A stretch of 64,000 nucleotides of DNA from an uncultured Bacteroidales bacterium (GTDB lineage: Bacteria; Bacteroidota; Bacteroidia; Bacteroidales; FEN-979), in assembly GCA_903877385.1 (NCBI GenBank), contig CAIRDP010000054.1, positions 124,001 to 188,000 on the forward strand, given 5' to 3'. Both the position numbers and the translations under genes were made by a program. Positions within the stretch are counted from its first letter, which is position 1; every line of letters starts with the position of its first letter. The notes beneath the pieces are model-generated. The model was not told the origin of the DNA. It did not search any database and saw only the letters and a list, made by a program, of their open reading frames with translations. Positions 1 through 45,934 of this stretch are shown here, piece after piece.

Positions 1-1
1 G

Positions 2-705: not shown

Positions 706-3700
706 ATGATTAAATCATTTACGCTATTACAAAAGGTAGTTTCCAAACGGGCAATAGTTTCAGTAATCCTGCTGTTGTCTGTTACGTCTATTGCTTTTGC
801 ACAGGTTAGGACTGTTAAAGGGACGGTCACTGCTTCTGATTCCCGGGAAACTCTTCCCGGAACTACAGTCAGGCTGAAAGACAGTCCTACGGGTACCGTT
901 ACCGATATTGACGGGAAATACAGCATACAAGTAAAACAGGATAAGGCAATACTGGTGTTTTCTTTTATCGGTTATACCACCCAGGAGATTGAGGTAAAGA
1001 CCCAGAAAATACTGGATGTGGTACTTGAGCCGGCGAAAATTTCCTTGCAGGAGGTGGTGGTTGTCGGGTACGGCACACTGAGAAAGAGCGATCTGACTGG
1101 TTCTGTCGGTTCTTTAAAATCAGAAGATATTACAAAAATCACGGCTCTTGACCCTGTGCAAAGCCTGCAGGGGAAAGTGGCTGGTGTTCAGGTAGCAAGT
1201 TTATCGGGAACACCAGGGGAAAGCCCCATGGTCCTTATCAGAGGTGTAGGTACCTTTAATAATTCCTCCCCAATTTACGTGGTTGACGGAAATATCCTGG
1301 ATGACATATCTTTCCTGAACTCGGCCGATATAAAATCGATGGAAGTTCTGAAGGATGCTTCCGCAACGGCTATGTACGGTTCCAGGGGCGCCAACGGGGT
1401 AATCATTGTTACAACGAAAAGCGGCTCGGCTGTTGAAGGCAAGACCACTTTCAGTGTAACAGGGGAATATGGGCTGCAGAGTGTTGTAAAAGACATTAAA
1501 TTGTTAAACGGGCATGACTTTGCAGTAATTGCAAACCGTATATCCCCGGGCACCTATAACAATGTTGATGCTGTGTCCAGTACCGACTGGCAGAAACTCA
1601 TCTTTCACGTTGCCCCTGTTTATAATTTCCAGGTTTCAGCGACCGGGGCCTCAAAAGCCGTGCAATACTACCTTGGGTTGGGTTATTTTAAACAGGATGG
1701 TATAATTGATAAATCTAATTACCAGAGATTTACGGTTAAATTTGACAATACCTTCAATTTAGCACCATGGTTCAAGTTCGGTACTAATATTACACTGACA
1801 CCATTCTCCCAACAGATCGCCCCGGATGTTACCTACCAGGCTTACAGGGCAATTCCTACAATTGCACCGTATTATTCCAACGGGCAATTCGCGGCCCTTG
1901 ACGGTGTTGGCAACCCCTTGGCCGATCTTGAAAATTCCAACAATTTCCGTAAAGGAGTCAGGGGGGTCGGAAATATGTTTGCCGAGCTTACTTTCCTGAA
2001 ATCCATAACGTTAAAATCGAGTATTGGCATTGATGGGGAGTATGACAAAGCCGAAAGTTTCACCCCCAAATTCACTGTCTTTGAACCAAACGGATCGCCT
2101 TCCCAGCAATACAACCAGTATCCTACCCTGAGCAAGGCCTGGAGCGACAACCTTACCTGGCTTTGGGAAAACACCATTTCCTATGTAAAAGACATTAAAA
2201 AGCATTCTGTAAATGCGGTTGTTGGATACACCATGCAGAACACAACTTCCGAGAGTGTAGGCCTTACCGGGAAGAATATTATCCGTGATGGCCCGAATTA
2301 CTGGTACATCAATCCCAATTACATTTATGACGCTGCAAACGGGGTGAATACAATCAGTTCTATTTATAATTCAGTCAATCCTGACCAATATTATTCAATG
2401 ATCTCCTTTCTTGGCCGTATCAATTATACCTTCGACAGGAGATATATTTTAACAGTCACTTTCCGTGGCGACGGTTCATCCAAATTCATACAGCAGAACC
2501 GCTGGGGATATTTTCCCTCAGTCGCTGCCGGATGGAACATCACCTCCGAGAAATTCATGAAGAATATCAGCTTCCTTTCAAACCTTAAGCTCAGGGCCAG
2601 TTGGGGCCAGGTTGGGAATGACAAGATCCCATATACAGGACGCTATTCACAGGTCGATAATAGCCTGATTACGATTTTTGGAGCCACATCCTCTTCTAAT
2701 CCGGCCGCTTCCTATGGTCTGCTTGGAAACCCGAACCTGAAATGGGAAGTGACTTCACAAACCGATATCGGGCTTGAAACTGGATTTCTCAATAACAGGC
2801 TTACCGGTGAATTTGATTTTTATTATAAAAAAACCGACAATATCTTGGTTCCCTTGTCCATCCCGGGATATTTCGGGAATGGAGCCGGACAGCAGGAGTG
2901 GTTTAATGCCGCATCAATATTGAACAGGGGGTTCGAGTTTAATGTAAGCTGGAAGGATAAAATCGGGCAACTCAAGTACGGGCTTGGTTTTCTTGGTACT
3001 ATAAACCATAACGAAGTGCTCAGTATTGGGGGAAACAGCGGAGTTGATTCTGTGTTATTAGGAGGTTATCTTGGGAACGGTATCCCTGTGACCCGGAGCA
3101 AAGTCGGTTTGCCGGTAGGAGCCTTTTATGGATATGAGACTGACGGTATATTCCAGACGCAAGCCGAGCTGAATGCCTACCCGCATATGTCGGGGGCAGG
3201 CGTTGGAGACCTCCGCTTCGTGGATGTGAACCATGATGGAAAAATCGACGGCAAGGACCGTACATTCATAGGGTCGCCTATCCCCACTTTTATCTTTGGG
3301 TTTAACCTCGATCTTGAATACAAGGGGTTTGATTTTTCGGTGAACATCCAGGGACAAACAGGCAATAAAATCTTTAACGCAAAGGATGCAGTCAGACCTG
3401 ATCCTTATAATTTCGAAACCAATGTCATGAGCGGTTGGTATGCAGCAGGCACAAGTTACACCGAACCGCGAGCTTCATACGGAGGGTATAACTACATACC
3501 ATCCGACAGGTTTATACAGGACGGTTCCTTTGTGAGAATTCGCAACCTGATCCTTGGATACACTCTTCCACAGAAACTCAGTACAAAGATCTGTATGCAA
3601 AAACTGCGTTTCTATTTAAAAGTGGATAACCTGTACACGTTTTCCAAGTTCACAGGATACTCTCCCGAAATAGGGAGTTCGAATGTCCTTTCCAGCGGTA

Positions 3701-3762
3701 TTGATAACGGCGGATATCCTATTACTGCTTTATATGCGTTTGGTATTAATATTTCAATGTAA
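706..3762 (+). CDS. SusC/RagA-family TonB-linked outer membrane receptor
   Basis: Outer-membrane TonB-dependent transporter that takes up glycan fragments together with a SusD partner. Residues 1-33 form a signal peptide ending ...SIAFAQ. Residues about 38-112 are the carboxypeptidase-regulatory-like N-terminal domain of SusC proteins (GTVTASDSRETLPGTTVRLK). The TonB-box/plug motif EVVVVGYGTLRKSDLTGSV begins at residue 116, followed by the plug (VLIRGVGT, PIYVVDG, MYGSRGANGVIIVTTKSG) and a long beta-barrel to the C-terminus. At 1018 residues it has the normal length for the family. The susD-like gene starts 5 bp after its stop, so the two are co-translated. It is the first gene of the locus. 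The predicted substrate, beta-1,2-glucan, comes only from the downstream enzymes. Confidence 0.95.
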   Translation: MIKSFTLLQKVVSKRAIVSVILLLSVTSIAFAQVRTVKGTVTASDSRETLPGTTVRLKDSPTGTVTDIDGKYSIQVKQDKAILVFSFIGYTTQEIEVKTQKILDVVLEPAKISLQEVVVVGYGTLRKSDLTGSVGSLKSEDITKITALDPVQSLQGKVAGVQVASLSGTPGESPMVLIRGVGTFNNSSPIYVVDGNILDDISFLNSADIKSMEVLKDASATAMYGSRGANGVIIVTTKSGSAVEGKTTFSVTGEYGLQSVVKDIKLLNGHDFAVIANRISPGTYNNVDAVSSTDWQKLIFHVAPVYNFQVSATGASKAVQYYLGLGYFKQDGIIDKSNYQRFTVKFDNTFNLAPWFKFGTNITLTPFSQQIAPDVTYQAYRAIPTIAPYYSNGQFAALDGVGNPLADLENSNNFRKGVRGVGNMFAELTFLKSITLKSSIGIDGEYDKAESFTPKFTVFEPNGSPSQQYNQYPTLSKAWSDNLTWLWENTISYVKDIKKHSVNAVVGYTMQNTTSESVGLTGKNIIRDGPNYWYINPNYIYDAANGVNTISSIYNSVNPDQYYSMISFLGRINYTFDRRYILTVTFRGDGSSKFIQQNRWGYFPSVAAGWNITSEKFMKNISFLSNLKLRASWGQVGNDKIPYTGRYSQVDNSLITIFGATSSSNPAASYGLLGNPNLKWEVTSQTDIGLETGFLNNRLTGEFDFYYKKTDNILVPLSIPGYFGNGAGQQEWFNAASILNRGFEFNVSWKDKIGQLKYGLGFLGTINHNEVLSIGGNSGVDSVLLGGYLGNGIPVTRSKVGLPVGAFYGYETDGIFQTQAELNAYPHMSGAGVGDLRFVDVNHDGKIDGKDRTFIGSPIPTFIFGFNLDLEYKGFDFSVNIQGQTGNKIFNAKDAVRPDPYNFETNVMSGWYAAGTSYTEPRASYGGYNYIPSDRFIQDGSFVRIRNLILGYTLPQKLSTKICMQKLRFYLKVDNLYTFSKFTGYSPEIGSSNVLSSGIDNGGYPITALYAFGINISM

Positions 3763-3767
3763 AGACC

Positions 3768-5258
3768 ATGAAAGCGAAAACATCAATATTATTCATACTT
3801 GCAATTTCAGGGCTCCTTGCTGTTCCAGGCTGTAAAAAATTTCTGCAGAAAGATTTGCAGGGAACAATGACACAGGAGTCATTCCCGGTATCTGCATCAG
3901 ATGCCCTTCTCGCAACCAACGCGGTTTATACCACAACCCGGGAATGGTATTATCATTCAGGCGGGTATCCTATCCTTGACATCATGTCGGACGATGCCCG
4001 CAAAGGAAGCAATCCATCGGACCAGTTGAATACCGTAGGGCCATATGACAACTTCAAGATTACCACGACCCAGGACGGCCTTGACCGCTGGTGGTCCGAA
4101 ATGTATGTAGGTATTAAACGTGCAAATGTGGTTATAGAGAAGGTTCCTTTGATTTCTATGGATACTGCCCTTCAGAACCGATACCTGGCTGAGGCTCATT
4201 TCCTGAGGGGGCTCTTTTATTTCGACATGGTACGTGCCTGGGGAGGAGTACCTCTTGTTACCACCACCACTCCTCCTCTTAAGCTCTCAAGATCATCGGA
4301 GACGGAAACCTTTGCTCTTGTCATGGCCGACCTCCTTTATGCCGAAAGCCATTTGCCTTTACGTAACAGTTATTCCTCTACCGATCTGGGAAGAGCGACA
4401 AAGGGAGCCGCAGATGCATTACTGGCAAGGGTTTATCTTTTCAGGAAAGATTTTCCAAATGCTGAAAAATATGCCAAACTGGTCATCAGTTCCAACCAGT
4501 ATTCACTTGAGCCCGATTTTATAGACGCTAACGGGGTGAACGGTAATAACGGCCCGGAATCAATTTTTGAAGTCGGAGCGATACAAAATGAAGGGACAGA
4601 AGGCGGGGGCGACCAGTATGCAAATACCCAGGGAGTAAGGGGAACCCCAAACCGCGGATGGGGTTTCAACCGACCGACTCCCTCCCTTACAAATTCATTT
4701 GAAGCAGGAGATCCCCGACTGAAAGGGACTGTGATCAGTCTGAAAGACACTATTGACGGAGTTATTATCATAGGGGATGGTTCAACACCGGCTGTAACTA
4801 AAGATTCAGCCGGAAACATTCTGGAAGTCCAGTGCTATAACAGGAAAGTCTGGGTTCCGGGGACTAGCACTGCCAGCCAATGGGCCCATCACAGAAGGCT
4901 GATCAGGTATGCTGATGTGCTTTTAATGGCAGCAGAAGCCCTGAATGAGGACAATAATCCGACAGAAGCGCTGTTATATCTTAACATGGTCAGGGCAAGG
5001 GCCAGGAACGGGAACCCCGGCATTCTCCCGGATATCACAACAACCAGCCAAAGTGAACTACGTGACATTATCTTTAATGAGAGAAGGCATGAACTGGCGA
5101 TGGAAGGCTGGAGATTCTGGGACCTCATCAGGACAGGGAGGGCACCCGCTGTTCTTGGTCCCCTGGGCTTTATTACCGGGACCCACGAACACCTTCCCAT
5201 TCCCCAGAGCGAAATTGATATTTCACAAGGAAGTTTAACACAAAATCCAGGATATTAA
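3768..5258 (+). CDS. SusD/RagB-family glycan-binding lipoprotein
   Basis: Surface lipoprotein that caps the SusC barrel and binds the glycan. The lipoprotein signal ends AVPGC with the lipidated Cys at residue 22. The SusD TPR-like features follow: QNRYLAEAHFLRGLFYFDMV (about 135-155), a central loop-rich binding region, and the conserved C-terminal block RYADVLLMAAEALNE, NMVRARA, IFNERRHELAMEGWRFWDL. The 496-residue length is usual. It lies 5 bp after the susC-like gene and 34 bp before the LamG lipoprotein. The family assignment is secure; the ligand is inferred from the locus. Confidence 0.95.
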   Translation: MKAKTSILFILAISGLLAVPGCKKFLQKDLQGTMTQESFPVSASDALLATNAVYTTTREWYYHSGGYPILDIMSDDARKGSNPSDQLNTVGPYDNFKITTTQDGLDRWWSEMYVGIKRANVVIEKVPLISMDTALQNRYLAEAHFLRGLFYFDMVRAWGGVPLVTTTTPPLKLSRSSETETFALVMADLLYAESHLPLRNSYSSTDLGRATKGAADALLARVYLFRKDFPNAEKYAKLVISSNQYSLEPDFIDANGVNGNNGPESIFEVGAIQNEGTEGGGDQYANTQGVRGTPNRGWGFNRPTPSLTNSFEAGDPRLKGTVISLKDTIDGVIIIGDGSTPAVTKDSAGNILEVQCYNRKVWVPGTSTASQWAHHRRLIRYADVLLMAAEALNEDNNPTEALLYLNMVRARARNGNPGILPDITTTSQSELRDIIFNERRHELAMEGWRFWDLIRTGRAPAVLGPLGFITGTHEHLPIPQSEIDISQGSLTQNPGY

Positions 5259-5292
5259 AATCTTTATTGTTTAATTTAAAAATCACACGTTT

Positions 5293-6558
5293 ATGAGAAA
5301 ACAAATTATCGCGTTAAATGTTTTACTTCTTGCACTGGTGGTGTTCATCGGTGTCATCAGTTGTAAAAAATCGAGTGACAACACTGTCACTTTCGGACTG
5401 TCCTCCATTAAGGCTGGTACCATAGATCTGAACGGAGCCACACCCCCGGTCAATGTACCGCCCAACGCTGTCATTACTGCCGCTTTTTCTGTCGCAGTCA
5501 ACCCGGCAACCGCAACCTCAACAACTATCAAATTGTTACGTGGTTTTGATACAGTTTACGTATCTTCAACAATTACTGTGACCGGAAGCGTAATAACGAT
5601 CACCCCATCGACCGATCTTGGGAACGGAACTGCATACCAGCTCAGTTTCTCAGGCCTGATGTCAACCGATGGACAGGGTTTAGCCCCTTTTACAAGGGCA
5701 TTTGTAACAATCGGGACCTTTGCACCCAGCGGAGCTGTCGCTTATTATAATTTTGAAGGCAACGCCAACGACCAGGTAGGCACATGGAATCCATCCCCAA
5801 CCGGGATTGTTGACCTTACTTATGCAGCTTCTTATTCTACAGCAGCCGGTCAGTGCGCAGCTTTTAACGGAACATCCACTATCATTGAAATCCCCAATGG
5901 CGACCAGCTGGATAACACAACCGATTTCACTATCGCTTTCTGGGTTAAAGCCAATTCAGTAGGTCATGTTGACTCATTAGGAAATCCCAAAGGCCAGTTT
6001 GTTTTTGGTCTTGGAGCTTTCAAAGGATTCGAGTTTGAAATGTCGGGAGATTACAGTTCATGCAAACTCTCAGCTTCATATCGTCTTGCCAATGATTCCA
6101 CTTCTTCCGAAGACCTCTGGTTTGCTGGTGACGGCAATCTCGGCTGGCAGGGATGGACCTATTGCAGGGACCTCACCCAGTCGGGTGGTGTTGCAGGCCT
6201 GTTAAAAGACAAATGGGCATTCGTGACCTGTGTCTATAACAGCACTTCGAAGATCGGAGCCATGTATATCAATGGGCAGATCATGAAAACACAGGACTTT
6301 AACCTCTGGCCGGCTGGCGATCCCAAGACAGGTGTCAAGGGCCTGAAGTATGGCGGCGTTACTCCCGATGTATATCCTATTCTTGCCCTTGGTCATATCT
6401 TTTCAAGGAATTCAACCATGTGGTCCGATCAATCCTGGGCCAGATACTCTTCACAATATGCCAATCATTTCGGTGGCTGGCTTGATGATCTCAGAATTTA
6501 CCACAGGCCACTTTCAGCTAACGAAATTGTCCTGATGTACAATTCTGCAAAACCATAA
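5293..6558 (+). CDS. Ig-like/LamG-domain surface lipoprotein, probable surface glycan-binding protein
   Basis: A 421-residue lipoprotein; the signal ends GVISC with Cys at residue 24. Residues about 35-140 form a bacterial Ig-like (Big_5-type) domain (AVITAAFSVAVNPATATSTTI ... GTAYQLSFSGLMSTDGQGL). Residues about 145-415 form a concanavalin/LamG-like jelly roll (VAYYNFEGNANDQVGTW, DFTIAFWVKA, WAFVTCVYNSTSKIGAMYING, GGWLDDLRIYHRPLSANEI). It directly follows susC/susD, the usual place for the surface glycan-binding protein (SGBP) of a PUL. The N-terminal Ig-like domain resembles that of the next gene, which suggests both are presented on the cell surface on similar stalks. No catalytic motif was recognised. 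A strong terminator follows. Confidence 0.8.
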   Translation: MRKQIIALNVLLLALVVFIGVISCKKSSDNTVTFGLSSIKAGTIDLNGATPPVNVPPNAVITAAFSVAVNPATATSTTIKLLRGFDTVYVSSTITVTGSVITITPSTDLGNGTAYQLSFSGLMSTDGQGLAPFTRAFVTIGTFAPSGAVAYYNFEGNANDQVGTWNPSPTGIVDLTYAASYSTAAGQCAAFNGTSTIIEIPNGDQLDNTTDFTIAFWVKANSVGHVDSLGNPKGQFVFGLGAFKGFEFEMSGDYSSCKLSASYRLANDSTSSEDLWFAGDGNLGWQGWTYCRDLTQSGGVAGLLKDKWAFVTCVYNSTSKIGAMYINGQIMKTQDFNLWPAGDPKTGVKGLKYGGVTPDVYPILALGHIFSRNSTMWSDQSWARYSSQYANHFGGWLDDLRIYHRPLSANEIVLMYNSAKP

Positions 6559-6582
6559 TAAGAAGTTTCTTTCAGATCCTTT

Positions 6583-6618
6583 GGGAGGGTTCCGGTTAAT
6601 TACCGGCCCTCCCTTTTT
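6583..6618 (+). terminator. Rho-independent terminator after the susCD-LamG genes
   Basis: GGGAGGGTTCCGG and CCGGCCCTCCC form a strong hairpin (6583-6613) around TTAATTA, followed by TTTTT. It lies between the binding/uptake genes and the first enzyme gene. It would therefore attenuate read-through, giving more SusCD/LamG than enzymes; this last step is inference. Confidence 0.8.
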
Positions 6619-6650
6619 ATCCTGATAATTTTCATCTCACGGATGTTTGT

Positions 6651-8630
6651 ATGAATAACCGGAATAATATTTTATTGCTTGTTTTTATCTTACTTTTATT
6701 AATTACTTCCTGCCGTAAACAGTCTGATACTTCTTCTTCAAATGTTCTCCAGATTAAAAATGTTACTGCAGGAACAACTCCCATTACATTGCAGGGGCCG
6801 AATAAAAATATTCCGGCCGACAGTACAATCAGCCTGTACTTTGATCATAAGCTCGACACATCAACGGTCTCAAAAAGCATAATAATTTCAGGTCCCGATA
6901 AGCTTCCCGTAGATTTTATAAGCGGGTTTTCTCCTGATTTCACCGTGGCGCTGATCCGTCCGCGCCTGTCACTGAATGTACTCAGCGATTACACCCTCAG
7001 TATATCTTCAGGCATAAAGGGGGCTGCAGGTGAATCCTACCCAGGGGCAGTTTATTCTTTTACGACCGCCACTGGCAAACTTAAACTTGAAACCATTACT
7101 GTCAACAGCATACCGTTTCCCTCAAACGTCCATCTGCGGGAAGTAAACCGCAACAATGTAAACATTCAGCTGAGATTCTCCCAACCTCTCGACACCGCAA
7201 ATTCCAGGGTCATCTTTTCCCTATCGGGCAACCAGGTAGTAAAAATATTCTTTTCGGCCGATTTCAAATCCGTTACAATTAATAATTCGACAGCACTGAG
7301 GGGATATTCCAGGTACTACTTTACCGTCATGAACAGCCTGAAAGGTAAAAACGGCTTTTCATATGACGGGTACTATAATTATTTTTTTTCATCTCTTGAT
7401 TCGACTCAGAAATTCCCTACCATTTCGGATGACGAGTTGCTCACCCTCATCCAGCAAAAAACCTTCAGCTATTTTTATGATTTTGCCCATCCAGCCTGTG
7501 GTATGGCCAGGGAGAGAAATTCTTCGGGAGATGTTGTTACAACCGGAGGTTCAGGTTTCGGGATCATGGCGCTGGTTGTGGGGATGAACAGGAACTTCAT
7601 TACAAGGGAACAGGGGATGACAAGGCTTTCAAAGATACTTGGGTTCCTCGAAACCTGCGATCGCTTTCATGGAGCCTGGCCGCACTGGATGGATGGCACT
7701 ACAGGGAAAACTGTACCATTTACAGTAAAAGATGATGGAGGGGATCTTGTGGAAACGTCCTATATGGTCGAAGGCCTTATTACAATGCGACAATACCTGA
7801 ATGCCGCCGATGTGACTGAAAGTGCTCTGATTGGCAGGATAGATGCACTTACCAATGCAGTGGAATATGACTGGTTTACCAGGGGAGAGAATGTGCTTTA
7901 CTGGCACTGGTCGCCTGATTACGGCTGGGCTATGAATATGCAGATCCGCGGATATGATGAAACTCTTATAACCTATATTATTGCAGGAACATCAACAACA
8001 CACCCGATAAGTGCATCCGTGTATCAGCAGGGATATGCCCAGAACGGTTCAATAAAAAACGGGAAAAGCTTTTACGGTTATGTGCTGGCTCTTGGAGAGG
8101 ATTACGGAGGCCCTTTATTTTTCACACATTATTCTTACCTGGGGCTGGACCCGAGAAATCTGACAGACCAGTACGCAAATTACTGGCAGCAGAATGTCAA
8201 CCAGTCAATGATCAATTACTCATACTGCGTGGCCAACCCTCATCATTATTCCTGTTATAGTGCAAACTCCTGGGGCCTCACGGCCAGTGACACTCCCGAT
8301 GGCTATGGCGCCCAGTCTCCGACTAACGACGTTGGGGTGATCACACCAACTGCCGCTGTTTCGGCACTTCCTTACACCCCGGTCCAGTCCATGAATGCTA
8401 TCAGGTTCTATTATTATATACTGGGCGACAGGTTATGGGGAACTTATGGTTTTTATGATGCATTTGATGTTACCGACGAATGGTGGGCCGATTCCTACCT
8501 TGCTATTGACGAGGGCCCCATTGTGAGCATGATAGAAAACTACCGGTCCCAGTTGCTATGGAACCTGTTCATGAGCAATCCTCAAGTAAATGCATCCCTG
8601 ACAAAACTTGGTTTTACATATAAAAAGTAA
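6651..8630 (+). CDS. Glucoamylase-like (GH144-type) lipoprotein, probable endo-beta-1,2-glucanase
   Basis: Lipoprotein signal ending LITSC, Cys at residue 21. Residues about 35-250 hold two Ig-like domains, the first similar to that of the preceding LamG protein. Residues about 255-655 are the (alpha/alpha)6 glucoamylase-like domain (Pfam 'Glycoamylase' family, CAZy GH144). Recognisable blocks are QQKTFSYFYDFAHP, VVTTGGSGFGIMALVVGMNR, GGDLVETSYMVEGL (D365, E368), GYDETLITYIIA, WGLTASDTPDGY and WWADSYLAIDEGPIVSMIENY. Characterised GH144 members cleave beta-1,2-glucan internally to sophoro-oligosaccharides. Surface location is inferred from the lipid anchor and Ig stalk. It is the first enzyme gene of the PUL and lies 27 bp before the GH3 gene. 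Confidence 0.85.
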   Translation: MNNRNNILLLVFILLLLITSCRKQSDTSSSNVLQIKNVTAGTTPITLQGPNKNIPADSTISLYFDHKLDTSTVSKSIIISGPDKLPVDFISGFSPDFTVALIRPRLSLNVLSDYTLSISSGIKGAAGESYPGAVYSFTTATGKLKLETITVNSIPFPSNVHLREVNRNNVNIQLRFSQPLDTANSRVIFSLSGNQVVKIFFSADFKSVTINNSTALRGYSRYYFTVMNSLKGKNGFSYDGYYNYFFSSLDSTQKFPTISDDELLTLIQQKTFSYFYDFAHPACGMARERNSSGDVVTTGGSGFGIMALVVGMNRNFITREQGMTRLSKILGFLETCDRFHGAWPHWMDGTTGKTVPFTVKDDGGDLVETSYMVEGLITMRQYLNAADVTESALIGRIDALTNAVEYDWFTRGENVLYWHWSPDYGWAMNMQIRGYDETLITYIIAGTSTTHPISASVYQQGYAQNGSIKNGKSFYGYVLALGEDYGGPLFFTHYSYLGLDPRNLTDQYANYWQQNVNQSMINYSYCVANPHHYSCYSANSWGLTASDTPDGYGAQSPTNDVGVITPTAAVSALPYTPVQSMNAIRFYYYILGDRLWGTYGFYDAFDVTDEWWADSYLAIDEGPIVSMIENYRSQLLWNLFMSNPQVNASLTKLGFTYKK

Positions 8631-8656
8631 TCCCTGTATATTAAATTTATACACTC

Positions 8657-12416: not shown

Positions 12417-12424
12417 TGCTGGTT

Positions 12425-15400: not shown

Positions 15401-15610
15401 ATCTCCTATTCAATAAAAAAAGACAAAGACAGATACATCTTTTCAATTTCCGGTGATCTGAAACTTCCTCCCAATGGAATAAAGATCAAAAACTTTAACG
15501 GCTCGAAGCTGCCTCTCAGTGTCACCATTAACGGTAAAGGGCAAACCGGTTTTACAGATAAGGAGATTTCAGTAAAAACTTGTCCTGCAGAGGTGGTGAT
15601 TTATTATTAA
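12425..15610 (+). CDS. Secreted discoidin-domain protein with (alpha/alpha)6-barrel, unassigned glycosidase-like
   Basis: An exported protein of 1061 residues. The ATG at 12425 is preferred to the GTG at 12416, which overlaps the previous stop; the signal peptide is MKNHISKRVALLLLQVLFAT followed by IVNSQ. Residues about 27-180 are a jelly-roll carbohydrate-binding-like domain (DNFENKDGWTFIRSDG ... GTIWIDDLKF). About 185-300 is an F5/8 type C (discoidin) domain (DSDKTYWQSKGSKDQNMIIDF). About 310-590 is beta-rich, and about 595-960 is a six-hairpin (alpha/alpha)6 region with SYERSWIRDGALTSS (D640), NDSHGEMIYLI (E694) and DMPHTWVGSDFINA. The acidic residues resemble catalytic residues of inverting (alpha/alpha)6 glycosidases, but no family could be named. 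Its place between a GH144-type gene and the sugar importer argues for a role in glycan breakdown. Confidence 0.65.
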   Translation: MKNHISKRVALLLLQVLFATIVNSQVSTLDNFENKDGWTFIRSDGVNLALTNEKGLTGNAIRFDYDFKNGTGYGGIQKLFPIDLPDNYEFTFYIRAESPANNFEIKFIDSTGNNVWWVNNHNYDFPVEWKKIRIKKRHINFAWGPATNHDLKRIDRIEFTISSFVGGKGTIWIDDLKFEPLPSETDTYPTPLLKASSSQQDHPAFLAIDDSDKTYWQSKGSKDQNMIIDFKTRREFGGVRINWHKGMSAAKFNIMLSDDGVKWEQAYSVSANKADVSFIRMPEAETRYLKLNLAGSNSNEGFGISEISFLKIKNSMTANDFLIYTAEHSTAGDYPRYFSEQASYWTITGVNNDVKEALINEDGMVETDKARFSIEPMIKTGDTLYNWHNVKAVQSLGSYEDSKEFNFVPSVTWQCSGIKFITGVTAGGEANKDSRLDISYSFENLSTGTKDFEFYLLIRPYQVNPYYQFLNLMGGAGKINSIKEAEGGSLLIDGKVLLSGKKYDSFGASVFDYGNIVDLVSKGKVPPDKFADDPGGLANGVIKYSFHLKPGEQTLFFVVVPFYGNQIPAKKLSNDVIAEESKQASDFWRKKTGHIRFNLPESANSIVNTYRSNLAYILINRDNAGIQPGSRSYERSWIRDGALTSSALLKSGIVAEVKDFIEWYTAHQFENGKVPCVVDSRGPDPVPENDSHGEMIYLIREYFNFTKDTVFLRSKNNNVLKAAGYIESLIAQRSTDYFKYGNDSIRACYGLVTESISHEGYSSKPMHSYWDDFFTMKGLKDAAEIQKILGEKESYERIIKIRDTFRENLYNSIQLAMKTKRIDYIPGCAELGDFDATSTTISLTPCNELNNLPKPQVYNTFDRYYEFFKNRRDGKSEWVNYTPYENRLIGSFILLDQPARAHELIEFFLHDQRPQGWNDWAEVVWKDYRAPKYIGDMPHTWVGSDFINAIRTMFVYENEYDQSLVLASALYQDWIDSPAGMSVEHLPTYYGEISYSIKKDKDRYIFSISGDLKLPPNGIKIKNFNGSKLPLSVTINGKGQTGFTDKEISVKTCPAEVVIYY

Positions 15611-15654
15611 ATGTGTAGTGCCGTATTGAAATACATTAGCCTTAAGCGATATCT

Positions 15655-17712
15655 ATGATGGAACAAGAATCAGTAAAGGACAAGGAAGCAAAGCCGGAAC
15701 ACCAGATTCATTTTTCACAGTTGGCTGCCTATGGGGCCGGGGGTATTATTCCCATTGCACTCTTCAACATTACGGGAATACTTGTAGGGTTGATGGGGAA
15801 TATCAGTTTAGGGTTAAGCGCCTTTTGGCTTGGAGCTATTTTAATCGTTCCCCGTTTGTGGGATGCCCTTTCTGATCCTTTTATCGGCCATCTTTCTGAT
15901 AATACCCGGACCCTCTGGGGGCGCCGGCGTCCCTATTTGCTGATTGGCGGAATACTCGTTGCGGTTTTTTTTGTGGTTATCTGGTGGATCCCCAAGGGAG
16001 ATATGATACGCACCTGGTTTCCATCTGATACGGGTTTTCAATGGTTTCAGCTGAGCTATATTCTTTTTTCCCTTTTGCTGTTTTTCACTGCCGTTAATCT
16101 GTTCGAGATTCCTCACGGAGCCCTTGGCATGGAGATGACCACAAACTACCACGAACGCACCCGTCTTTTTAGCGCGAAGAGTTTTGTTGGCAATCTTTTT
16201 GCGATGAGCACCCCCTGGCTTTTTGCACTTGCCAGCATGGAAATCTTCAAAGGTCCGGGAGGAAATGAAGCCGATGGCATGCGTTATGTTTCTTTGATGA
16301 TCGCTGCTTTCCTCATCCCGCTTTCATTCTGGTGGTTCTTCAAGCTGAAGGAGCCGGGTTTTGTCAAGGCTGCAAAGCATGAAAAAACGCCCTTCTGGAA
16401 AGACATGAAACGCACGGCCGGCAACCGGAACTTTATCATGCTAACGTTGACGATCTTCACACTGGCCATGGGTTTTAATTTCGTCCAACTGCTGGGGTCA
16501 TACATTCCTATTTTTTATGTTTTCGGGGGTGACAAAGTTGCAGGAGCCTACTTGCTTGGAATTAACGGCACCATATGGGCCATCACTGGGGTATTGGCAG
16601 TATTTCCCCTCAACTGGATCAGCCCGAAATTGGGGAAACGTAATACCCTCACCATTGCTATTTTACTCATGTGCATGGCACAAATTTCCAAGATTGTCTG
16701 TTACAATCCTTCACATCCCTATTTGATCATCATCCCCACCATGCTCCTTTCTGTGGGCATGCTTTTTTTCTTTACCCTTGGATCTTCCATGGTTGGAGAT
16801 ATATGTGATGAAGAAGAATTAAAGACTGGTTATCGCACTGAAGGTAGTTATTACTCTGTTTTCTGGTGGTTTATAAAAATGGGATCCGCTTTAGCCAGCT
16901 TTGTGGCAGGTGCACTGATCGTGTTTACGATGTTTGACGAAACCCAGGTCACAAAAGTCGATAAAATACAGGGCAGTGTGAGGGAAATGCGCAGCACCGT
17001 TCAGTTCTGGAAAGGCTACCATGGCATTGCCAGCGCAAATAAGGTATGGCTTGAAAACACTAAAACCCGGAATGCTGAAGCGCTCAAAGAGTCAAAAGAA
17101 TATCTCACTTACCTGGGAAAAGAATCACTTAAAAATCATTCTAAGGCGAACCTGAATCTGCATGAATATCCGAACCAGAAGAAAAATGAATTATTAAACG
17201 CCATCTCTACTACAAAAGCAACCATTGGTTCACTGGAACAGCTGCAATGGAGTTTTGAAAAACCAGAGGCCGGCGCCCAGTCCTCCAGGCTTGACAGCCT
17301 CATCAAAGAAGCAATCCCGCTTACACTGCAAACGAAGATCGTAAAAGCAAGGATGAACTCGTTTGAACTTAGGTCGCGGCTGGAAGATAAATCCCTGGTA
17401 ACAAAGAACAGCAAAGAACACTATAAGAAGCTTATGGAGGAGGTAACAGGGGTTAATACCCGCCTTCTAAACCTGGACATAAATTCATCACCCGATTCTC
17501 TCGAAAAAGAGCTCGGCTCAATCGAAAGCAGCATCATGCCGCTCACCCAGCAAACCCCATATACACTTTTAATGATGCGTGTGGTTGAGATCGGGCTTCC
17601 TTTGCTTCTAAGCATTTTTTCGATTTTCTTTGTACTCCGTTACTCACTGACCGAAAAACGAAGCCATGAGATCAAGGAACTTCTCAGACAAAGAAACTTG
17701 GCAAAAACGTGA
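15655..17712 (+). CDS. GPH/MFS-family oligosaccharide transporter with large periplasmic insert
   Basis: Inner-membrane sugar carrier of the glycoside-pentoside-hexuronide group. The family signature DALSDPFIGHLSDNTRTLWG-RRRPYLL is present after TM2, followed by regular hydrophobic segments and the motif GDICDEEELKTGYRTEGSYYS. The last two transmembrane helices are about 405-427 and 640-665. Between them lie about 205 highly charged, helix-forming residues with coiled-coil character (e.g. KQ/KNELLNAISTTKATIGSLEQ, KEHYKKLMEEVTGVNTRLL). Usual GPH carriers have a short loop here and are about 450 residues long; this one has 685. With cytoplasmic termini the insert would face the periplasm. Inferred role: import of sophoro-oligosaccharides for the cytoplasmic GH35 and GH94 enzymes encoded next. 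Confidence 0.85.
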   Translation: MMEQESVKDKEAKPEHQIHFSQLAAYGAGGIIPIALFNITGILVGLMGNISLGLSAFWLGAILIVPRLWDALSDPFIGHLSDNTRTLWGRRRPYLLIGGILVAVFFVVIWWIPKGDMIRTWFPSDTGFQWFQLSYILFSLLLFFTAVNLFEIPHGALGMEMTTNYHERTRLFSAKSFVGNLFAMSTPWLFALASMEIFKGPGGNEADGMRYVSLMIAAFLIPLSFWWFFKLKEPGFVKAAKHEKTPFWKDMKRTAGNRNFIMLTLTIFTLAMGFNFVQLLGSYIPIFYVFGGDKVAGAYLLGINGTIWAITGVLAVFPLNWISPKLGKRNTLTIAILLMCMAQISKIVCYNPSHPYLIIIPTMLLSVGMLFFFTLGSSMVGDICDEEELKTGYRTEGSYYSVFWWFIKMGSALASFVAGALIVFTMFDETQVTKVDKIQGSVREMRSTVQFWKGYHGIASANKVWLENTKTRNAEALKESKEYLTYLGKESLKNHSKANLNLHEYPNQKKNELLNAISTTKATIGSLEQLQWSFEKPEAGAQSSRLDSLIKEAIPLTLQTKIVKARMNSFELRSRLEDKSLVTKNSKEHYKKLMEEVTGVNTRLLNLDINSSPDSLEKELGSIESSIMPLTQQTPYTLLMMRVVEIGLPLLLSIFSIFFVLRYSLTEKRSHEIKELLRQRNLAKT

Positions 17713-17713
17713 C

Positions 17714-17762: not shown

Positions 17763-17786
17763 CGAGTGTTAAATAAGAAGCGACGA

Positions 17787-20216
17787 ATGAATTTCTTTAT
17801 TAAAGAAGGTAATTTTTATCTTAACGATAAAAAAGTATTTCTTAATTCGGGAGAGATCCATTATTTCAGGATCAGGCGCGATCTGTGGAACAAGCACCTG
17901 GCAGCAGCCAGGGAAGCCGGGCTAACCACGATCAGTACTTATGTTCCATGGGCCTGGCACGAATCAGAGGAAACGATTTTTGATTTTGACGGAGCCAGCT
18001 GTCCCGAACGGGACCTAAAAGGCTGGCTGGAGCTTTGCCAGTCCCACGGATTGAACTGTATCGTAAAACCGGGGCCATTTATCCTTGCTGAGTTCAGGGG
18101 GGCAGGACTGCCCGATTGGTTTATGGAACAGCATCGCGATGAGGTTAAAATGCGTAACAACAAAGGCGAGATATTTCCAAGTGACGGGGTCAGCCTGTTT
18201 AATAAGACATACCTCGAGAAAGTATCGCTATGGTATGATCAGATCATGCCGTTCATCGCTGAGCGCGAAGTCACAGCCGGCGGACCAATAATAATGATGC
18301 AGGTTTGCAATGAGATCGGCGTATTCTCGTGGCTGGCGCACCAGGCCGATTACAGTAATGTTGTAAAGGATCATTTCATCAAATACCTTGAACAAAAATT
18401 CACCGGCATTAAAGAAGTGAACAGCTTATGGGGAACAGCTTACAAGGATTTTATTCATGTTGAACTTCCTCCCGACGGCAGGCTCCCCTATGCATCCAAA
18501 GGCGACCGCAGCCGTGACCATGAATGGCATCTCTTCTGGAGAAAATATTACGGGGACTACCTGAGAATGCTCAGCGGCATGGCCAGGGAGAGAGGCGTCA
18601 GCCTTCCCCTGTATCACAACCTGCCCGGCTGGATCTATGGAAACGGCTATGAATTCCCGGTTAACATCAGCATGTATGAAGATCTGTTCGGAGATAAGAG
18701 CGAGATCATGTTCGGGGTGGATCATATTCCCGAATTCCTCTCGTACCGTAACATGCATGACGACAGGATCATTAATGATATAAGCTCTGCCATGCAGGGC
18801 AATAAACCGATGTTTGCTGCCGAGCTCCAATGCGGTTCCCGTGAATATCACGTGGTGACAAACCCGCGTGAGATGGAACTCTTCTACAAGGCAAGCGTTG
18901 CCAACGGTTTAACCGGCTGGAACTACTATATGTTCTCACAGGGCCTCAACCCCGCACGCAAGGGCTATTCTGGGGACACATTTTACTGGTTCAACCCCCT
19001 CAATGCAGAAGGTGAGCGGGGCAGCGCTTTTCCGTTGGTTAAACGGATGAGCAAACTAATTAAAACATCCGAAAACCTTATCGTCAACGCAAAGCGTAAA
19101 GCCGGGATCTGCATCCTTTTCTATCCGCCGTATTACGCCACAGAGCTGGAAAGGCCGCTTGACGTGAGGTGTGAACTTAAGTTTACCCCTTCGGCCATCC
19201 GCAGACCAGCATACTTTGACGGATTACTGAAAGCTTTGCTGATCCTCAATATCGATTATGACATGCTCGATCTCAGCCAGGTTTCAGCTGATGAGCTGCT
19301 TCACTATAAACAGGTATGGTGCTTCAGCACTGATGAAATGAATGCAAGGGAGCAGCAAACCATTGTGGATTATACAAAAGCCGGAGGCAACAGTGTTCTT
19401 TTCCCATACCTGCCCGACCGGGAGATGTCGCAAAAACCCTGTACCATCATTCGCGACGCAATCTCTATATCACCATCGGGAGTTGAGAACATTGATTCAC
19501 CCCTGGTCGACATCTTTGAATTCAAAGATATCAAGTGCTCGAATCCTCAGATCATTTATTCAGAAGTATCGGTTTCGGGAGCCGAAGTAATTGCCAGGAC
19601 TATTAATGGGAATGTCTGCGGATTTCTGAAATCGGTTGGAAACGGGTCCCTGCTTCAGCTGGGAACCTGGATCGGGTTTGATACCGAAGGGCATAAACCG
19701 GTGTATGAAGCGATCCTTAATAAGTCAGGAGCTAGACTAAGGCAGGCCTCGGCCGGGAATGCCGGTTTAGCTTTGAGAGAAAGATTCACAGAGGGTTCTG
19801 CTGTGCTTTTTATAGGGAATTATTACAATGAAGAGCAGGCCGGGAAAGTAAGCTATACCCATCCCCTCACCGGTGAAGCCATGAATATTCCTTACTCAAA
19901 GGATGAGATCTTATGGCCGGCCTTATATGGCGTACTTACCCCTGTATGCCTGGAAATTTCTGACGGAATACAGATTCTGCACAGCACTTCCGATATCCTG
20001 GGGGTGGAAGAGATTTACGGACAGATAGAGATCACTTTGTACGGCAACCGCGACCTGGCCGGGGAAATAGTGTTCGAAGGAGCCAATGTGAATAAAATCA
20101 TATCTGCTACCCTGAGGGGTAAAACCGTTAAAATGGTCCGTGACGAAAAACGCATCGCATTTTTATACAGCCATAAGCACAAGAGTGAAATGGTTCTTAA
20201 CATTGTCATTAGCTGA
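17787..20216 (+). CDS. Cytoplasmic GH35 enzyme (beta-galactosidase fold; possible beta-1,2-glucosyltransferase)
   Basis: The 809-residue protein starts at ATG 17787; an in-frame GTG at 17766 would add seven basic residues. No signal peptide, so cytoplasmic. The N-terminal GH35 TIM barrel is clear: FLNSGEIHYFRIRRDLW, TTISTYVPWAWHE, NCIVKPGPFILAEF, acid/base motif MMQVCNEIG (E176) and a probable nucleophile in MFAAELQCGSREY (E346). The second half is beta-rich. Most GH35 proteins are annotated as beta-galactosidases, but a GH35 enzyme from Ignavibacterium is known to transfer glucose between beta-1,2-gluco-oligosaccharides. Next to a GH94 phosphorylase and GH144-type proteins, that activity is more likely here than lactose cleavage. 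The specific activity is inference; the family is secure. Confidence 0.85.
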   Translation: MNFFIKEGNFYLNDKKVFLNSGEIHYFRIRRDLWNKHLAAAREAGLTTISTYVPWAWHESEETIFDFDGASCPERDLKGWLELCQSHGLNCIVKPGPFILAEFRGAGLPDWFMEQHRDEVKMRNNKGEIFPSDGVSLFNKTYLEKVSLWYDQIMPFIAEREVTAGGPIIMMQVCNEIGVFSWLAHQADYSNVVKDHFIKYLEQKFTGIKEVNSLWGTAYKDFIHVELPPDGRLPYASKGDRSRDHEWHLFWRKYYGDYLRMLSGMARERGVSLPLYHNLPGWIYGNGYEFPVNISMYEDLFGDKSEIMFGVDHIPEFLSYRNMHDDRIINDISSAMQGNKPMFAAELQCGSREYHVVTNPREMELFYKASVANGLTGWNYYMFSQGLNPARKGYSGDTFYWFNPLNAEGERGSAFPLVKRMSKLIKTSENLIVNAKRKAGICILFYPPYYATELERPLDVRCELKFTPSAIRRPAYFDGLLKALLILNIDYDMLDLSQVSADELLHYKQVWCFSTDEMNAREQQTIVDYTKAGGNSVLFPYLPDREMSQKPCTIIRDAISISPSGVENIDSPLVDIFEFKDIKCSNPQIIYSEVSVSGAEVIARTINGNVCGFLKSVGNGSLLQLGTWIGFDTEGHKPVYEAILNKSGARLRQASAGNAGLALRERFTEGSAVLFIGNYYNEEQAGKVSYTHPLTGEAMNIPYSKDEILWPALYGVLTPVCLEISDGIQILHSTSDILGVEEIYGQIEITLYGNRDLAGEIVFEGANVNKIISATLRGKTVKMVRDEKRIAFLYSHKHKSEMVLNIVIS

Positions 20217-20240
20217 ATTACCTGAATCAATTCCATCAAG

Positions 20241-23200
20241 ATGTCAGTGAACAACACTAAGGATAATCACAGGGATGAACCCCCGGGTAAACCCCGGCAT
20301 GATGTTCCAACTCAGGCTGAAGGGAATTTTCCGGGAGAGATCAGAAATTCGGAAGGACTTTCCATCAGGTTCCTCGAAAATGGCTCTCTTAAGTGCATTG
20401 AAGCCGGTCCTGTAAGGATCAGCCTGAAAGCTGCAACGGCATTTTCGGGACCCGGAGCAAACATTTACCTCAGAAAAAGGACAAAACCTTGTGAATTCAC
20501 AGTTCTTTCAGGTCCGGAAAGCGATAGCCGTTTCATTGTAAAAGAGGATGCCTTTATTGCTGAAGGCAGCTGGGGAGGCCTGGACTATACCTGTGTTCTT
20601 AAGCTTTCGAAAAAAAGTCTGAGCTGGGCCTGGAGCATTGATATTACAAATTCATCTGAGGATACAGTTGAACTCGATCTGATCTGTATGCAGGATGCCG
20701 GGCTCAAGCAGGCGACCGACGGTCTCATCAATGAGTATTATGTAAGCCAGTATCTTGAACGCAGGATCCTTAAAGACCCGAACTATGGTTCAGTGGTATG
20801 CTGCCGGCAGAATATGAAAGAACCGGCAGGCAATCCATGGCTTATGATGGCTTGCAAAAACTCTGCAATAGCCGCTAGTGTTGACGGCATGCAGTTTTAT
20901 GGTCAAACATACCGTGAAACGGGAATCCCGGAAGGCCTACTTTCAGAAAAGTTGGGGGGCGAATATTCCGGCGAATCTTCTGTGCTTGCCTTGCAGGAGA
21001 AACCCTTTAAACTGCCTGCGGAACACCATCATAAAAGTGTGTTTTTTGCCACTTATCTGCCTGACCATGCCCGCGCAACCTCAGATGATGACCTGAAACT
21101 ATTGCCCGGTCTTATTTCTGAATTTGATGATGAAGTTCTATCTGGGGTTTCAAGCGGGTTGCGGAATGCTCAAGTAAACATATTCAAAACCTCTGGTTTT
21201 TTACCGGTTGATGACCTGAACGGGGATGACCTTAATGGCTTTTTCGGTAGGGAAAGACGGCATGCCGAATATAAGAACGGAAGGCTGCTTTCATTTTTCT
21301 GCGGACAAAACGAGCATGTTGTGCTGCGTACGAAGGAAGTGCTGGCCGACCGTCCGCATGCCCACATCATGCAAGCGAAGGCAGGTTATGCTCCCGATGA
21401 AAACATCGTTTCTACCACATCTTTTGCTTTTGGCGTTTTTAATTCACACCTCAGCCAGGGCAATACAAATTTCAACATCTTCCTTTCAGTATGTACGACA
21501 GCATTCAACCAGTCCCCTGAAACCGGGCAGAGGATCTTTGTCGTCATCAAGGGGAGGCGATATCTCCTTGGAGTTCCTTCGGTTTTTGAGATGGGCTTAA
21601 ACCATTGCCGGTGGATTTATAAACATGGAGACCATTGCTTCCAGGTCCGAAGCTGGACATCTAAAACCAGCCCCCGGGTCAATATGGACTTCAAGGTGCT
21701 TCAAGGAGGAGATGTGGACCTTTTAATTACACATCATTTTGACCGGCTTAACGGCTGGAAAATCAGCCCGGGAACCAATGTTGGTGAGTACACGGGCAGG
21801 CCTGAGGCAGGCAGCATGATTGCCTGCAAATTTCCCCAGGCACAATTCAAAATGCTTGTCAACAGCACCGATTGTGAATTCAAAGCATGCGGTGATGAAG
21901 CGCTTTACAGCGACAATACAAGCCATGGAGATCCTTTTTTCGTTCTCGACGTAAAGGAGACATCCGATTTCTGCTTGAGCTTTATCGCCGAGGTTTGTTC
22001 TGTCGTCAAGGCTGTTAAAATTGAGAATGCCGATGAACAGTGGCTGGCTGATTGCCGCGATGCCCGCTCGGCCTGGCAGGAACTTAGCCTGAACATTTCA
22101 ATAAAAGGAGAGCAGGAAGATATTGCCGCAATCGGGGAGATCCTTCCCTGGTATGGAATGAATGCGCTCACCCATTTTTTAACGCCTTACGGGCTTGAAC
22201 AATTCAGCGGAGCCGCCTGGGGAACCCGAGATATTGCACAGGGCCCGTTTGACCTGCTGCTGTGCATGGAAAAATTTGCAGAAGCCCGCCAGGTAATATG
22301 CATCATTTTCTCAAATCAGAATGCCGACGGTGGCTGGCCTCAATGGTGGATGTTCGACAGTTATTCCAACATAAGGGCCGACAGTTCGCATGGAGATGTT
22401 TTTTACTGGTGTATTATTGCCCTCAGCAACTATATCAAAGTTACAGGCGACCTGAAGATTCTGGATGAGATCCTCCCCTACTATCATGAGAATGGTGCCA
22501 ACCATGCCGAAAAAACTGCCCTGAGCGAACATGTTGACAGGCTGGTTAAAATGATCATTAATTCATTTATCCCGGGTACTTCCCTGGTCCCGTTTGGAGG
22601 CGGTGACTGGAATGATTCCCTTCAGCCGGTAAGCAGGGAGCTCGCTCAACGAATGATATCGAGCTGGACCGTTGAAATGAATTACCAGGCTTTTCACCAG
22701 TACCGCCTGGTGTATGAGCAAACCGATGCCAAAAGAGCTGATGAATTAAAAGAAATCTGCGAAAAGATCAAAGCAGATTTCAACTTGCACCTGGTCAGGG
22801 ACGGGGTGGTTGCAGGGTACGGGCTGCTTGAAGAGGACCGCAGCATCAGTCTGCTGCTGCATCCAGTTGATGACAGAACCGGCATCCGTTACAGCATACT
22901 GCCGATGAACCGCGGCATCATCAGTGGAATTTTCACGAAAGAACAGGCTCTGCAGCATCTTGACCTGGTTGAGAAGAAGCTAAAAGGCCCTGATGGCGCC
23001 CGTTTGATGGACCGTCCGCTCAAATACAAAGGCGGAGTTCAAACCCTGTTCCAGAGAGCCGAAAGCAGTACCTTCTTTGGCCGGGAAATCGGCCTGATGT
23101 ATGTGCATGAACATATACGTTATGCCGAATCACAGGCCCGTACCGGTAGGGCCGATGCTTTTATCAAAGCCCTGCGGCAGGCAATCCCGGTGGCTTACAG

Positions 23201-23675
23201 GGATATTGTGCCCTGCGGGGATATAAGGCAATCGAATTGTTATTACAGCAGTTCGGATGTCACATTCAGGAACCGTTATGAAGCAGATGAGCTGTACCAA
23301 GAAATAAAAACGGGAAAGATCACCCTTAAAGGGGGCTGGAGGGTTTATTCCAGTGGGCCGGGCATCTACATTGGCATCGTAGTTTCCCGCCTGCTTGGTT
23401 TGCGCCTGGAATCAGGAAATGTAATTCTTGACCCCGTACTTCCCTTTTCGATGGATGGCTTATCGGCTACATTGGATTTTATGGGCCATTCCTTAACAAT
23501 CAGGTATGCTGTAAAGGAAAACAATTTTGCTCCTAAAGCTGTTTCAGTTAACGGAAAACCTGTTCGGTTTACTTATGAAGACAACAACTATCGCCAGGGC
23601 GGGGCTGTTATCCCCAAAGCAATATTTTCAGCTTTGCTGGACCTGGAGGAGAATGTTGCAGATATAGAACTATAG
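20241..23675 (+). CDS. GH94 glycoside phosphorylase, probable 1,2-beta-oligoglucan phosphorylase
   Basis: A 1144-residue protein without signal peptide. The N-terminal half is the beta-sandwich lid region (WGGLDYTCVLKLSKKSLSWA). The C-terminal half is an (alpha/alpha)6 barrel with GH94 motifs: WGTRDIAQGPFDLLL, NADGGWPQWWMFD, FGGGDWNDSLQPV (D789/D792, the motif holding the general acid) and the ending SCYYSSSD-like QSNCYYSSSDVTF. GH94 members use phosphate to split beta-linked oligosaccharides to alpha-glucose 1-phosphate. The length and split layout match 1,2-beta-oligoglucan phosphorylases better than cellobiose phosphorylase (about 800 residues). It would feed glucose 1-phosphate to glycolysis without spending ATP. 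It is the last gene of the locus, 24 bp after GH35. Family secure; linkage specificity inferred. Confidence 0.87.
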   Translation: MSVNNTKDNHRDEPPGKPRHDVPTQAEGNFPGEIRNSEGLSIRFLENGSLKCIEAGPVRISLKAATAFSGPGANIYLRKRTKPCEFTVLSGPESDSRFIVKEDAFIAEGSWGGLDYTCVLKLSKKSLSWAWSIDITNSSEDTVELDLICMQDAGLKQATDGLINEYYVSQYLERRILKDPNYGSVVCCRQNMKEPAGNPWLMMACKNSAIAASVDGMQFYGQTYRETGIPEGLLSEKLGGEYSGESSVLALQEKPFKLPAEHHHKSVFFATYLPDHARATSDDDLKLLPGLISEFDDEVLSGVSSGLRNAQVNIFKTSGFLPVDDLNGDDLNGFFGRERRHAEYKNGRLLSFFCGQNEHVVLRTKEVLADRPHAHIMQAKAGYAPDENIVSTTSFAFGVFNSHLSQGNTNFNIFLSVCTTAFNQSPETGQRIFVVIKGRRYLLGVPSVFEMGLNHCRWIYKHGDHCFQVRSWTSKTSPRVNMDFKVLQGGDVDLLITHHFDRLNGWKISPGTNVGEYTGRPEAGSMIACKFPQAQFKMLVNSTDCEFKACGDEALYSDNTSHGDPFFVLDVKETSDFCLSFIAEVCSVVKAVKIENADEQWLADCRDARSAWQELSLNISIKGEQEDIAAIGEILPWYGMNALTHFLTPYGLEQFSGAAWGTRDIAQGPFDLLLCMEKFAEARQVICIIFSNQNADGGWPQWWMFDSYSNIRADSSHGDVFYWCIIALSNYIKVTGDLKILDEILPYYHENGANHAEKTALSEHVDRLVKMIINSFIPGTSLVPFGGGDWNDSLQPVSRELAQRMISSWTVEMNYQAFHQYRLVYEQTDAKRADELKEICEKIKADFNLHLVRDGVVAGYGLLEEDRSISLLLHPVDDRTGIRYSILPMNRGIISGIFTKEQALQHLDLVEKKLKGPDGARLMDRPLKYKGGVQTLFQRAESSTFFGREIGLMYVHEHIRYAESQARTGRADAFIKALRQAIPVAYRDIVPCGDIRQSNCYYSSSDVTFRNRYEADELYQEIKTGKITLKGGWRVYSSGPGIYIGIVVSRLLGLRLESGNVILDPVLPFSMDGLSATLDFMGHSLTIRYAVKENNFAPKAVSVNGKPVRFTYEDNNYRQGGAVIPKAIFSALLDLEENVADIEL

Positions 23676-30860: not shown

Positions 30861-30863
30861 CAA

Positions 30864-45915: not shown

Positions 45916-45934
45916 GGTATAAAATATCTTTAAT

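Follow-up and report, generated by a model that had tools for sequence, protein, structure and literature searches.

The locus and its setting

The subject here is a run of ten genes at positions 706-23675 in a 64,000-nucleotide stretch of DNA (the window; positions 124001-188000 of contig CAIRDP010000054.1, G000:C54:124001-188000) from an uncultured Bacteroidales bacterium whose 4.3-Mb genome, in 67 contigs, is stated to be 98% complete. They form a putative polysaccharide utilization locus (PUL) whose enzymes belong, in the main, to glycoside hydrolase (GH) families that point to beta-1,2-glucan. The genes, and the end of the one that precedes them, are as follows.

1-412, plus strand: 3' end of the gene for a 952-residue Y_Y_Y-domain protein whose start lies outside the window (L003:9555-12413); PF07495 over cut-off
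706-3762, plus strand: SusC-type TonB-linked outer-membrane transporter; TIGR04056 835 bits, cut-off 368, plug and barrel
3768-5258, plus strand: putative SusD-type glycan-binding lipoprotein; PF07980 and PF14322 over cut-offs
5293-6558, plus strand: LamG/Big_5 lipoprotein; PF13385 and PF13205 over cut-offs, lipobox-like ...VISC by eye
6651-8630, plus strand: predicted GH144 protein, CpSGL/4GL3 branch, with Big_5 repeats; PF10091 231 bits, lipobox-like ...ITSC
8657-10900, plus strand: predicted GH3 beta-glucosidase with an N-terminal signal-like segment; Pfam match, BglX equivalog 830 bits, cut-off 666
11013-12416, plus strand: predicted GH144 protein, XcSGL branch; 357 bits to 8xul (XCC2207), next 220
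12416-15610, plus strand: 1064-residue protein with a signal-like segment, F5/8C, beta-sandwich and (alpha/alpha)6 barrel in a predicted model; candidate new GH family
15655-17712, plus strand: predicted GPH/MFS_2 inner-membrane sugar symporter; PF13347 over cut-off, TIGR00792 164 bits, below its cut-off of 231
17766-20216, plus strand: GH35 protein, predicted beta-1,2-glucosyltransferase (SGT) of the IaSGT type; 7vkx 503 bits, next solved GH35 group 228
20241-23675, plus strand: GH94 protein of 1144 residues, predicted 1,2-beta-oligoglucan phosphorylase (SOGP); SOGP_N, SOGP_2nd, SOGP_4th and GH94 domains, 5h3z 542 bits

The open reading frames (ORFs), co-directional and coding in order for 1018, 496, 421, 659, 747, 467, 1064, 685, 816 and 1144 residues, span exactly the interval in which an initial annotation, made from the letters alone, had placed ten plus-strand genes. 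They are separated by 5, 34, 92, 26, 112, -1, 44, 53 and 24 bases, and because these gaps are so short the ten are likely to be a single transcription unit. The adjacency of SusC and SusD that defines a PUL is present at 706-5258, with 5 bases between the two genes and carbohydrate-active enzymes downstream. Pfam matches, counted over curated cut-offs in all ten proteins, back every family that the annotation had named: in order, the SusC plug and barrel; SusD; Laminin_G_3 with Big_5; Big_5 with PF10091; GH3; PF10091; F5/8 C; MFS_2; GH35; and SOGP_N, SOGP_2nd, SOGP_4th and GH94. The set recurs beyond chance, since homologues of it are found again around relatives of the 1064-residue protein in other genomes.

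Three markers of beta-1,2-glucan

The last gene is the most telling. Its 1144-residue product scores 542 bits against LpSOGP (5h3z), as against 26-43 for the other solved GH94 proteins listed, and it has the domain of about 250 extra N-terminal residues by which SOGP is recognised (SOGP_N, 173 bits, residues 43-269). When the residues listed for LpSOGP in the available text of PMC5309861 are transferred by pairwise alignment (for Y1004 and S1005 from the printed match line, the chain letters not being printed), the catalytic acid D760 corresponds to D792, and Q621, R630, D631, W758, R907, R916, E917, Y922, H924, Y1004 and S1005 correspond to Q654, R663, D664, W790, R939, R948, E949, Y954, H956, Y1036 and S1037. 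None of these twelve varies among 18 aligned sequences, the window's included; LpSOGP G623 is a serine here. By domain, score and residues the protein is an SOGP, with phosphorolysis of beta-1,2-glucooligosaccharides its predicted activity. Of the 395 genomes sampled from the phylum, SOGP_N was found only in the one that contains the window, and a scan for similar loci, described below, adds more from metagenome-assembled genomes (MAGs).

The two GH144 proteins are the second marker. Among solved structures the 659-residue one is closest to 4gl3 (518 bits) and 5gzh (502 bits, titled 'Endo-beta-1,2-glucanase'); its E437, D361, D365, E368, F490 and Y552 occupy key GH144 positions, with E437 and E368 aligned to the general acid E211 and the acidic E142 of CpSGL in 5gzh. 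For the 467-residue one the best solved relative is XcSGL (XCC2207) of Xanthomonas campestris, described in the available part of PMC12102758 as a GH144 enzyme assayed as an endo-beta-1,2-glucanase and specific for beta-1,2-glucan, with the residues of the clan named. E229, F274 and Y352 stand at XcSGL E239, F286 and Y367, and D156 is the acidic residue at the place of CpSGL E142; these four are invariant in an alignment of 16 sequences, the window's included. Chain 8xul has a glutamine at the place of E239, presumably a crystal mutant. That XCC2207 is not a classic GH144 protein raised the idea that the 467-residue protein belongs to GH192-194, which was dropped, given that PMC12102758, as far as its text was available, puts XcSGL in GH144. 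Both window proteins retain the clan residues named in that 2025 study. In a search of the phylum with the 467-residue protein the matches listed fall into two peaks, 315-1090 bits and then 238 or less, which indicates that the two copies, judged by sequence, are of separate branches. The genome has two PF10091 matches, both of them within the locus.

The GH35 protein, to which the initial annotation gave no role, strengthens the case, being of the IaSGT type. It scores 503 bits against IaSGT (7vkx), and its Y59, L107, E109, N182, E183, N285, G288, W289, D319, E353, R359 and Y388 correspond to IaSGT Y52, L100, E102, N175, E176, N275, G278, W279, D309, E343, R349 and Y378, all twelve invariant among 16 aligned sequences that include the window's and a 38% identical Ignavibacteriales form. 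In the accessible text of PMC8861115, IaSGT does not hydrolyse but transfers beta-1,2-linked glucose units, R349 is absent from many homologues, and N175 corresponds to an aspartate in GlmA. R359, the counterpart of R349, is kept in the window. A beta-galactosidase or exo-beta-glucosaminidase was considered, the latter being the best NCBIfam model (242 bits, cut-off 1500), and was rejected in view of the score gap and N182. The protein is of the IaSGT type on these grounds, a predicted beta-1,2-glucosyltransferase, and to the eye its N-terminus has no signal peptide.

With the SOGP, the GH144 pair and the IaSGT-type GH35 there are three separate beta-1,2-glucan markers in one operon. The dedication to that glucan proposed in the initial annotation holds at the level of sequence: the GH94 protein groups with LpSOGP, as had been expected of it, rather than with other phosphorylases, and both glucoamylase-like proteins match tested GH144 beta-1,2-glucanases and keep the clan residues. 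The locus is very probably a PUL for scavenging beta-1,2-glucan that other bacteria have made.

A proposed route from surface capture to glucose 1-phosphate

How might such a locus work? The order of events that follows is drawn from the families. The SusD protein, the LamG/Big_5 protein (a probable surface glycan-binding protein) and the lipoprotein GH144 would bind the glucan and cleave it at the cell surface, and the pieces would be imported through SusC. Shortening or trimming of these in the periplasm may fall to the XcSGL-type GH144, the GH3 and the 1064-residue protein, and the GPH symporter would carry the oligosaccharides into the cytoplasm. There the SOGP would phosphorolyse chains of at least three units, yielding glucose 1-phosphate and ever shorter chains, down to sophorose, and the IaSGT-type GH35 may then pass glucose units from sophorose to other acceptors, or return them to chains on which the SOGP can act. 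Of the pathway to glucose 1-phosphate that had been envisaged, the product stands, as the SOGP would give it; that it is the only end product does not, since SOGP acts on chains of at least 3 units (PMC5309861, from its available text) and sophorose should be left over. The window GH35 probably consumes that sophorose as donor, by analogy with what the authors of IaSGT propose for the GH35 of their own cluster in the available text of PMC8861115.

The 952-residue Y_Y_Y-domain protein encoded directly upstream on the same strand is probably the regulator of the locus; to the eye it seems to have a C-terminal helix-turn-helix. The MFS_2 match of the symporter stops at residue 433 of 685. Residues 434-685 are a C-terminal extension with a hydrophobic stretch near its end.

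Probable scavenging, and what else the locus might do

Several points weigh against the reading just given. The Bacteroides xylanisolvens GH35 Bxy_22780, from a locus with SusCD and GH144, is, in the available text of PMC11739564, a beta-1,2-galactosidase inactive on beta-1,2-glucooligosaccharides, so that GH144 company alone can mislead. The locations proposed above, those of the GH3 and the 1064-residue protein included, rest on N-terminal hydrophobic segments picked out by eye. Among the related loci considered below, many of the SusC counts outside loci of the Bacteroidales type are partial matches of about a fifth of the length. The GH3 protein, which scores 849 bits against JMB19063, 801 against 5tf0, 763 against 5xxl and 607 against Lin1840 (the last two we take to be beta-1,2-specific enzymes), appears nearest to generic beta-glucosidases, says little on linkage and is not diagnostic.

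Could the target be some other beta-1,2-linked glycan, a beta-1,2-galactoside for instance, with the GH144 proteins acting on a variant backbone? Bxy_22780 is a precedent for it in just such SusCD and GH144 company, and yet that protein falls, in the groups given in the accessible text of PMC11739564, with the GH35 beta-galactosidases and far from SGT, while the window GH35 has 503 bits to SGT against 228 for the next group and keeps the SGT residues, and an SOGP is in the locus too; we consider this very improbable. Just as improbable is a role in the turnover of beta-1,2-glucan that the cell itself makes. These glucans are bacterial and do serve osmoregulation (PMC12102758, in the part available), but machinery for import by SusCD is present, and in the 98% complete genome MdoG/OpgG has no match and the SOGP is the sole GH94 match, with no cyclic-glucan synthase bearing a GH94 domain found, synthases that lack these markers lying outside the search. 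As neither an OpgG-type gene nor a further GH94 was found, scavenging of foreign glucan is the better reading, as far as gene content can tell, than synthesis or turnover of the cell's own. SusD_RagB has only two matches in that genome, the other at C48:1255-1848, and because just two SusD genes were found beta-1,2-glucan may be one of the organism's main foods.

A candidate new glycoside hydrolase family

The 1064-residue protein has F5/8C domains, its only Pfam matches at E<=0.001, with none over the catalytic part; GH15, 65, 78, 94, 95, 116 and 133 gave no match in it at E<=1, a profile of 50 catalytic parts met no chain of the PDB at E<=1, and NCBIfam offered only a weak oligosac_amyl match (26 bits, cut-off 821). 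Ten aligned family members do somewhat better at E<=1, with Bac_rhamnosid6H in 7 of the 10 (at best 2.4e-7), GDE_C in 5, GH15 in 5 and GH95 in 1, and by these matches to Bac_rhamnosid6H, GDE_C and GH15 the protein belongs somewhere in that superfamily. The full-length model has a predicted local distance difference test score (pLDDT) of 81.7; a model of residues 336-1064 from a 50-sequence alignment reaches 92.0, with a predicted TM-score of 0.93. In a fold search with the latter, Z in the best 50 rows runs from 26.2 (8zbv, root-mean-square deviation 4.4, 559 residues aligned) down to 21.1, the matches covering 313-602 residues at 9-14% identity and comprising GH95, GH65, GH78, GH15, GH94, GH116 and GH139, some of these numbers being our presumption. 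The predicted fold is a beta-sandwich followed by an (alpha/alpha)6 barrel, as had been guessed for 12416-15610; the fold is given and no family named, because in the fold searches, which used both models, GH95, GH65, GH78, GH15, GH94 and GH116 lie within a few Z units of each other.

Among 54 aligned sequences, in which relatives are 36-76% identical, D643, D687, E691, D693, E762, E833, D836, D838, E888, E925 and D939 are invariant. From position in the barrel, our guess would be E762 for the acid and E925 for the base. A link through alignment to SOGP was tried and set aside, the profile comparison giving a probability of 12%; all it did was suggest E762 as acid candidate. Elsewhere in the genome a large protein with DUF608/GH116, GDE_C and MGH1-like matches (L005, G000:C27 near 45815-46117) is weakly similar to the 1064-residue protein over about 100 residues.

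In what company is the protein found? Of the 395 genomes of the phylum 40 have some match, and in 20, the window's included, a match reaches E<1e-100; within the taxonomic family of the window 29 of 43 genomes have some match, which in 19 of these is strong (at least 967 bits). PF10091 is present in 136 of the 395, among them all 20 with strong matches (Fisher p 2e-10, uncorrected for kinship). Neighbourhoods of 6-20 kb were fetched around 20 relatives, from 19 of the 20 strong-match genomes (the window's own left out) and one genus relative, and GH144 is in 20 of 20. In the locus scan, made with two peptide patterns, 578 of 596 stretches encode relatives (a total of at least 578, in which one gene may count twice). 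From these, 80 loci were kept, which overlap in part with the 20 neighbourhoods (e.g., L136, L152, L161), so that the two sets are not summed. By best BLAST match at E<=1e-5, some matches being partial, GH144 is in 71 of the 80, GH35 in 55, GPH in 51, SOGP (at least 30% identity) in 38, SusC in 32, SusD in 28, LamG in 24 and GH3 in 19. Seven of the nine loci without GH144 are shorter than 12 kb (L097, L110, L125, L134, L145, L150, L162), L133 begins inside the gene itself, and L151, at 14.7 kb, is the exception.

The closest relatives among the matches listed in the scan are in Bacteroidales and Bacteroidetes MAGs, several with what appear to be lake names, and by record titles the protein accompanies GH144 in Bacteroidetes, Ignavibacteriales, KSB1 and Calditrichia; in Ignavibacteria-type loci ORFs that to the eye are ABC-transporter-like hold the GPH position. 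A tie to the XcSGL branch alone fails: a strong match occurs in 10 of the 16 genomes where that branch scores at least 520 bits, and G006, G011 and G016 carry the protein with the other GH144 branch only. As it goes with GH144 in several groups, while most of the GH144 genomes sampled do without it, the pattern fits an accessory activity, optional among carriers of GH144. Two of the related loci have features of their own. At L132:13689-15761 a GH2-family gene between the 1064-residue relative and GH144, at the place of the IaSGT-type GH35, is a possible substitute for it, and in a MAG whose title gives Chitinophagaceae a 745-residue protein encoded upstream of the cluster, at L115:3802-6039, has GH2 N-terminal and GH15 signals below cut-offs.

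In our view the 1064-residue protein is a candidate for a new glycoside hydrolase family with an accessory part in the use of beta-1,2-glucan, and what it may do there can be pictured in more than one way. It is quite possible, though short of an even chance, that it acts as an exo-hydrolase on plain beta-1,2-glucooligosaccharides and so offers a further route to glucose or sophorose. GH144 is near its relatives in all 20 neighbourhoods and in 71 of the 80 loci, the fold includes enzymes for beta-glucosides such as GH94 and GH116, and with GH3 in only 19 of the 80 it could itself fill the exo role; on the other hand the window locus has a GH3, and 116 of the 136 GH144-bearing genomes have no strong match, so the activity is optional. 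More tentative, and on balance doubtful, is that it founds a family removing a bond other than beta-1,2, or a decoration, beyond the reach of GH144, GH3 and SOGP, such as the alpha-1,6 closure of the cyclic glucohexadecaose of Xanthomonas. In favour of this, alpha-glucosidases are among the enzymes nearest to it in fold (dextran dextrinase, glucodextranase, amylo-alpha-1,6-glucosidase and the GH65 alpha-1,2-glucosidase), and carriers of GH144 can do without it. The alpha-1,6 idea is by analogy with PMC11228985, in whose available text OpgD of Xanthomonas closes a 16-unit beta-1,2-glucan by one such bond. An F5/8C domain often binds, which would suit a protein that binds without catalysis and whose barrel is degenerate; that is unlikely when the acidic residues of the barrel, D643, E691, E762, E833, E888 and E925 among them, are invariant in 54 sequences.

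Relation to known systems

Parts of this arrangement are already known: clusters of GH144 with GH3, clusters with SOGP, SusCD with GH144 in B. xylanisolvens, and GH144 with GH94 and SGT in Ignavibacterium album. The last, that of IaSGT (IALB_1185), is in the available description (PMC8861115) alike in its two GH144 genes, GH94 and GH35 SGT, with TonB-dependent uptake proposed, and different in that its transporter is of the ABC type and its GH94 is likened to the C-terminal SOGP domain of cyclic glucan synthase. Compared by that description, SusCD/LamG, the GPH symporter, a full SOGP and GH3 are on the side of the window, as is the 1064-residue protein, a comparison made with no search of the I. 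album cluster for a relative. The SGL cluster of Bacteroides thetaiotaomicron, as cited in the accessible text of PMC8861115, is also of the Bacteroidetes and has GH144 and a beta-1,2-glucan beta-glucosidase; SOGP, SGT and a relative of the 1064-residue protein go unnamed in that citing description. The SOGP cluster of Listeria innocua shares SOGP and a GH3 beta-glucosidase and differs in its ABC transporter with binding protein, SusCD and GH144 being unnamed in what is available of the same paper. In searches of the open-licence literature no description was found of SusCD, SOGP, SGT and a protein of the 1064-residue type together.

The locus is predicted to combine capture by SusCD with phosphorolysis and glucosyl transfer in the cytoplasm. 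Beta-1,2-glucans are polymers of bacterial symbiosis, virulence and osmoregulation whose consumers are little known, and the 1064-residue protein is a concrete and widespread target for a new enzyme activity.

Other features of the window

Adjoining the end of the locus, on the minus strand at 23744-24685, is a gene for 313 residues with no Pfam match at E<=0.001. Further downstream a tRNA-Pro (ggg) lies on the plus strand at 30787-30861, and elsewhere in the window the minus strand has a very long ORF of 2957 residues (53271-62144).

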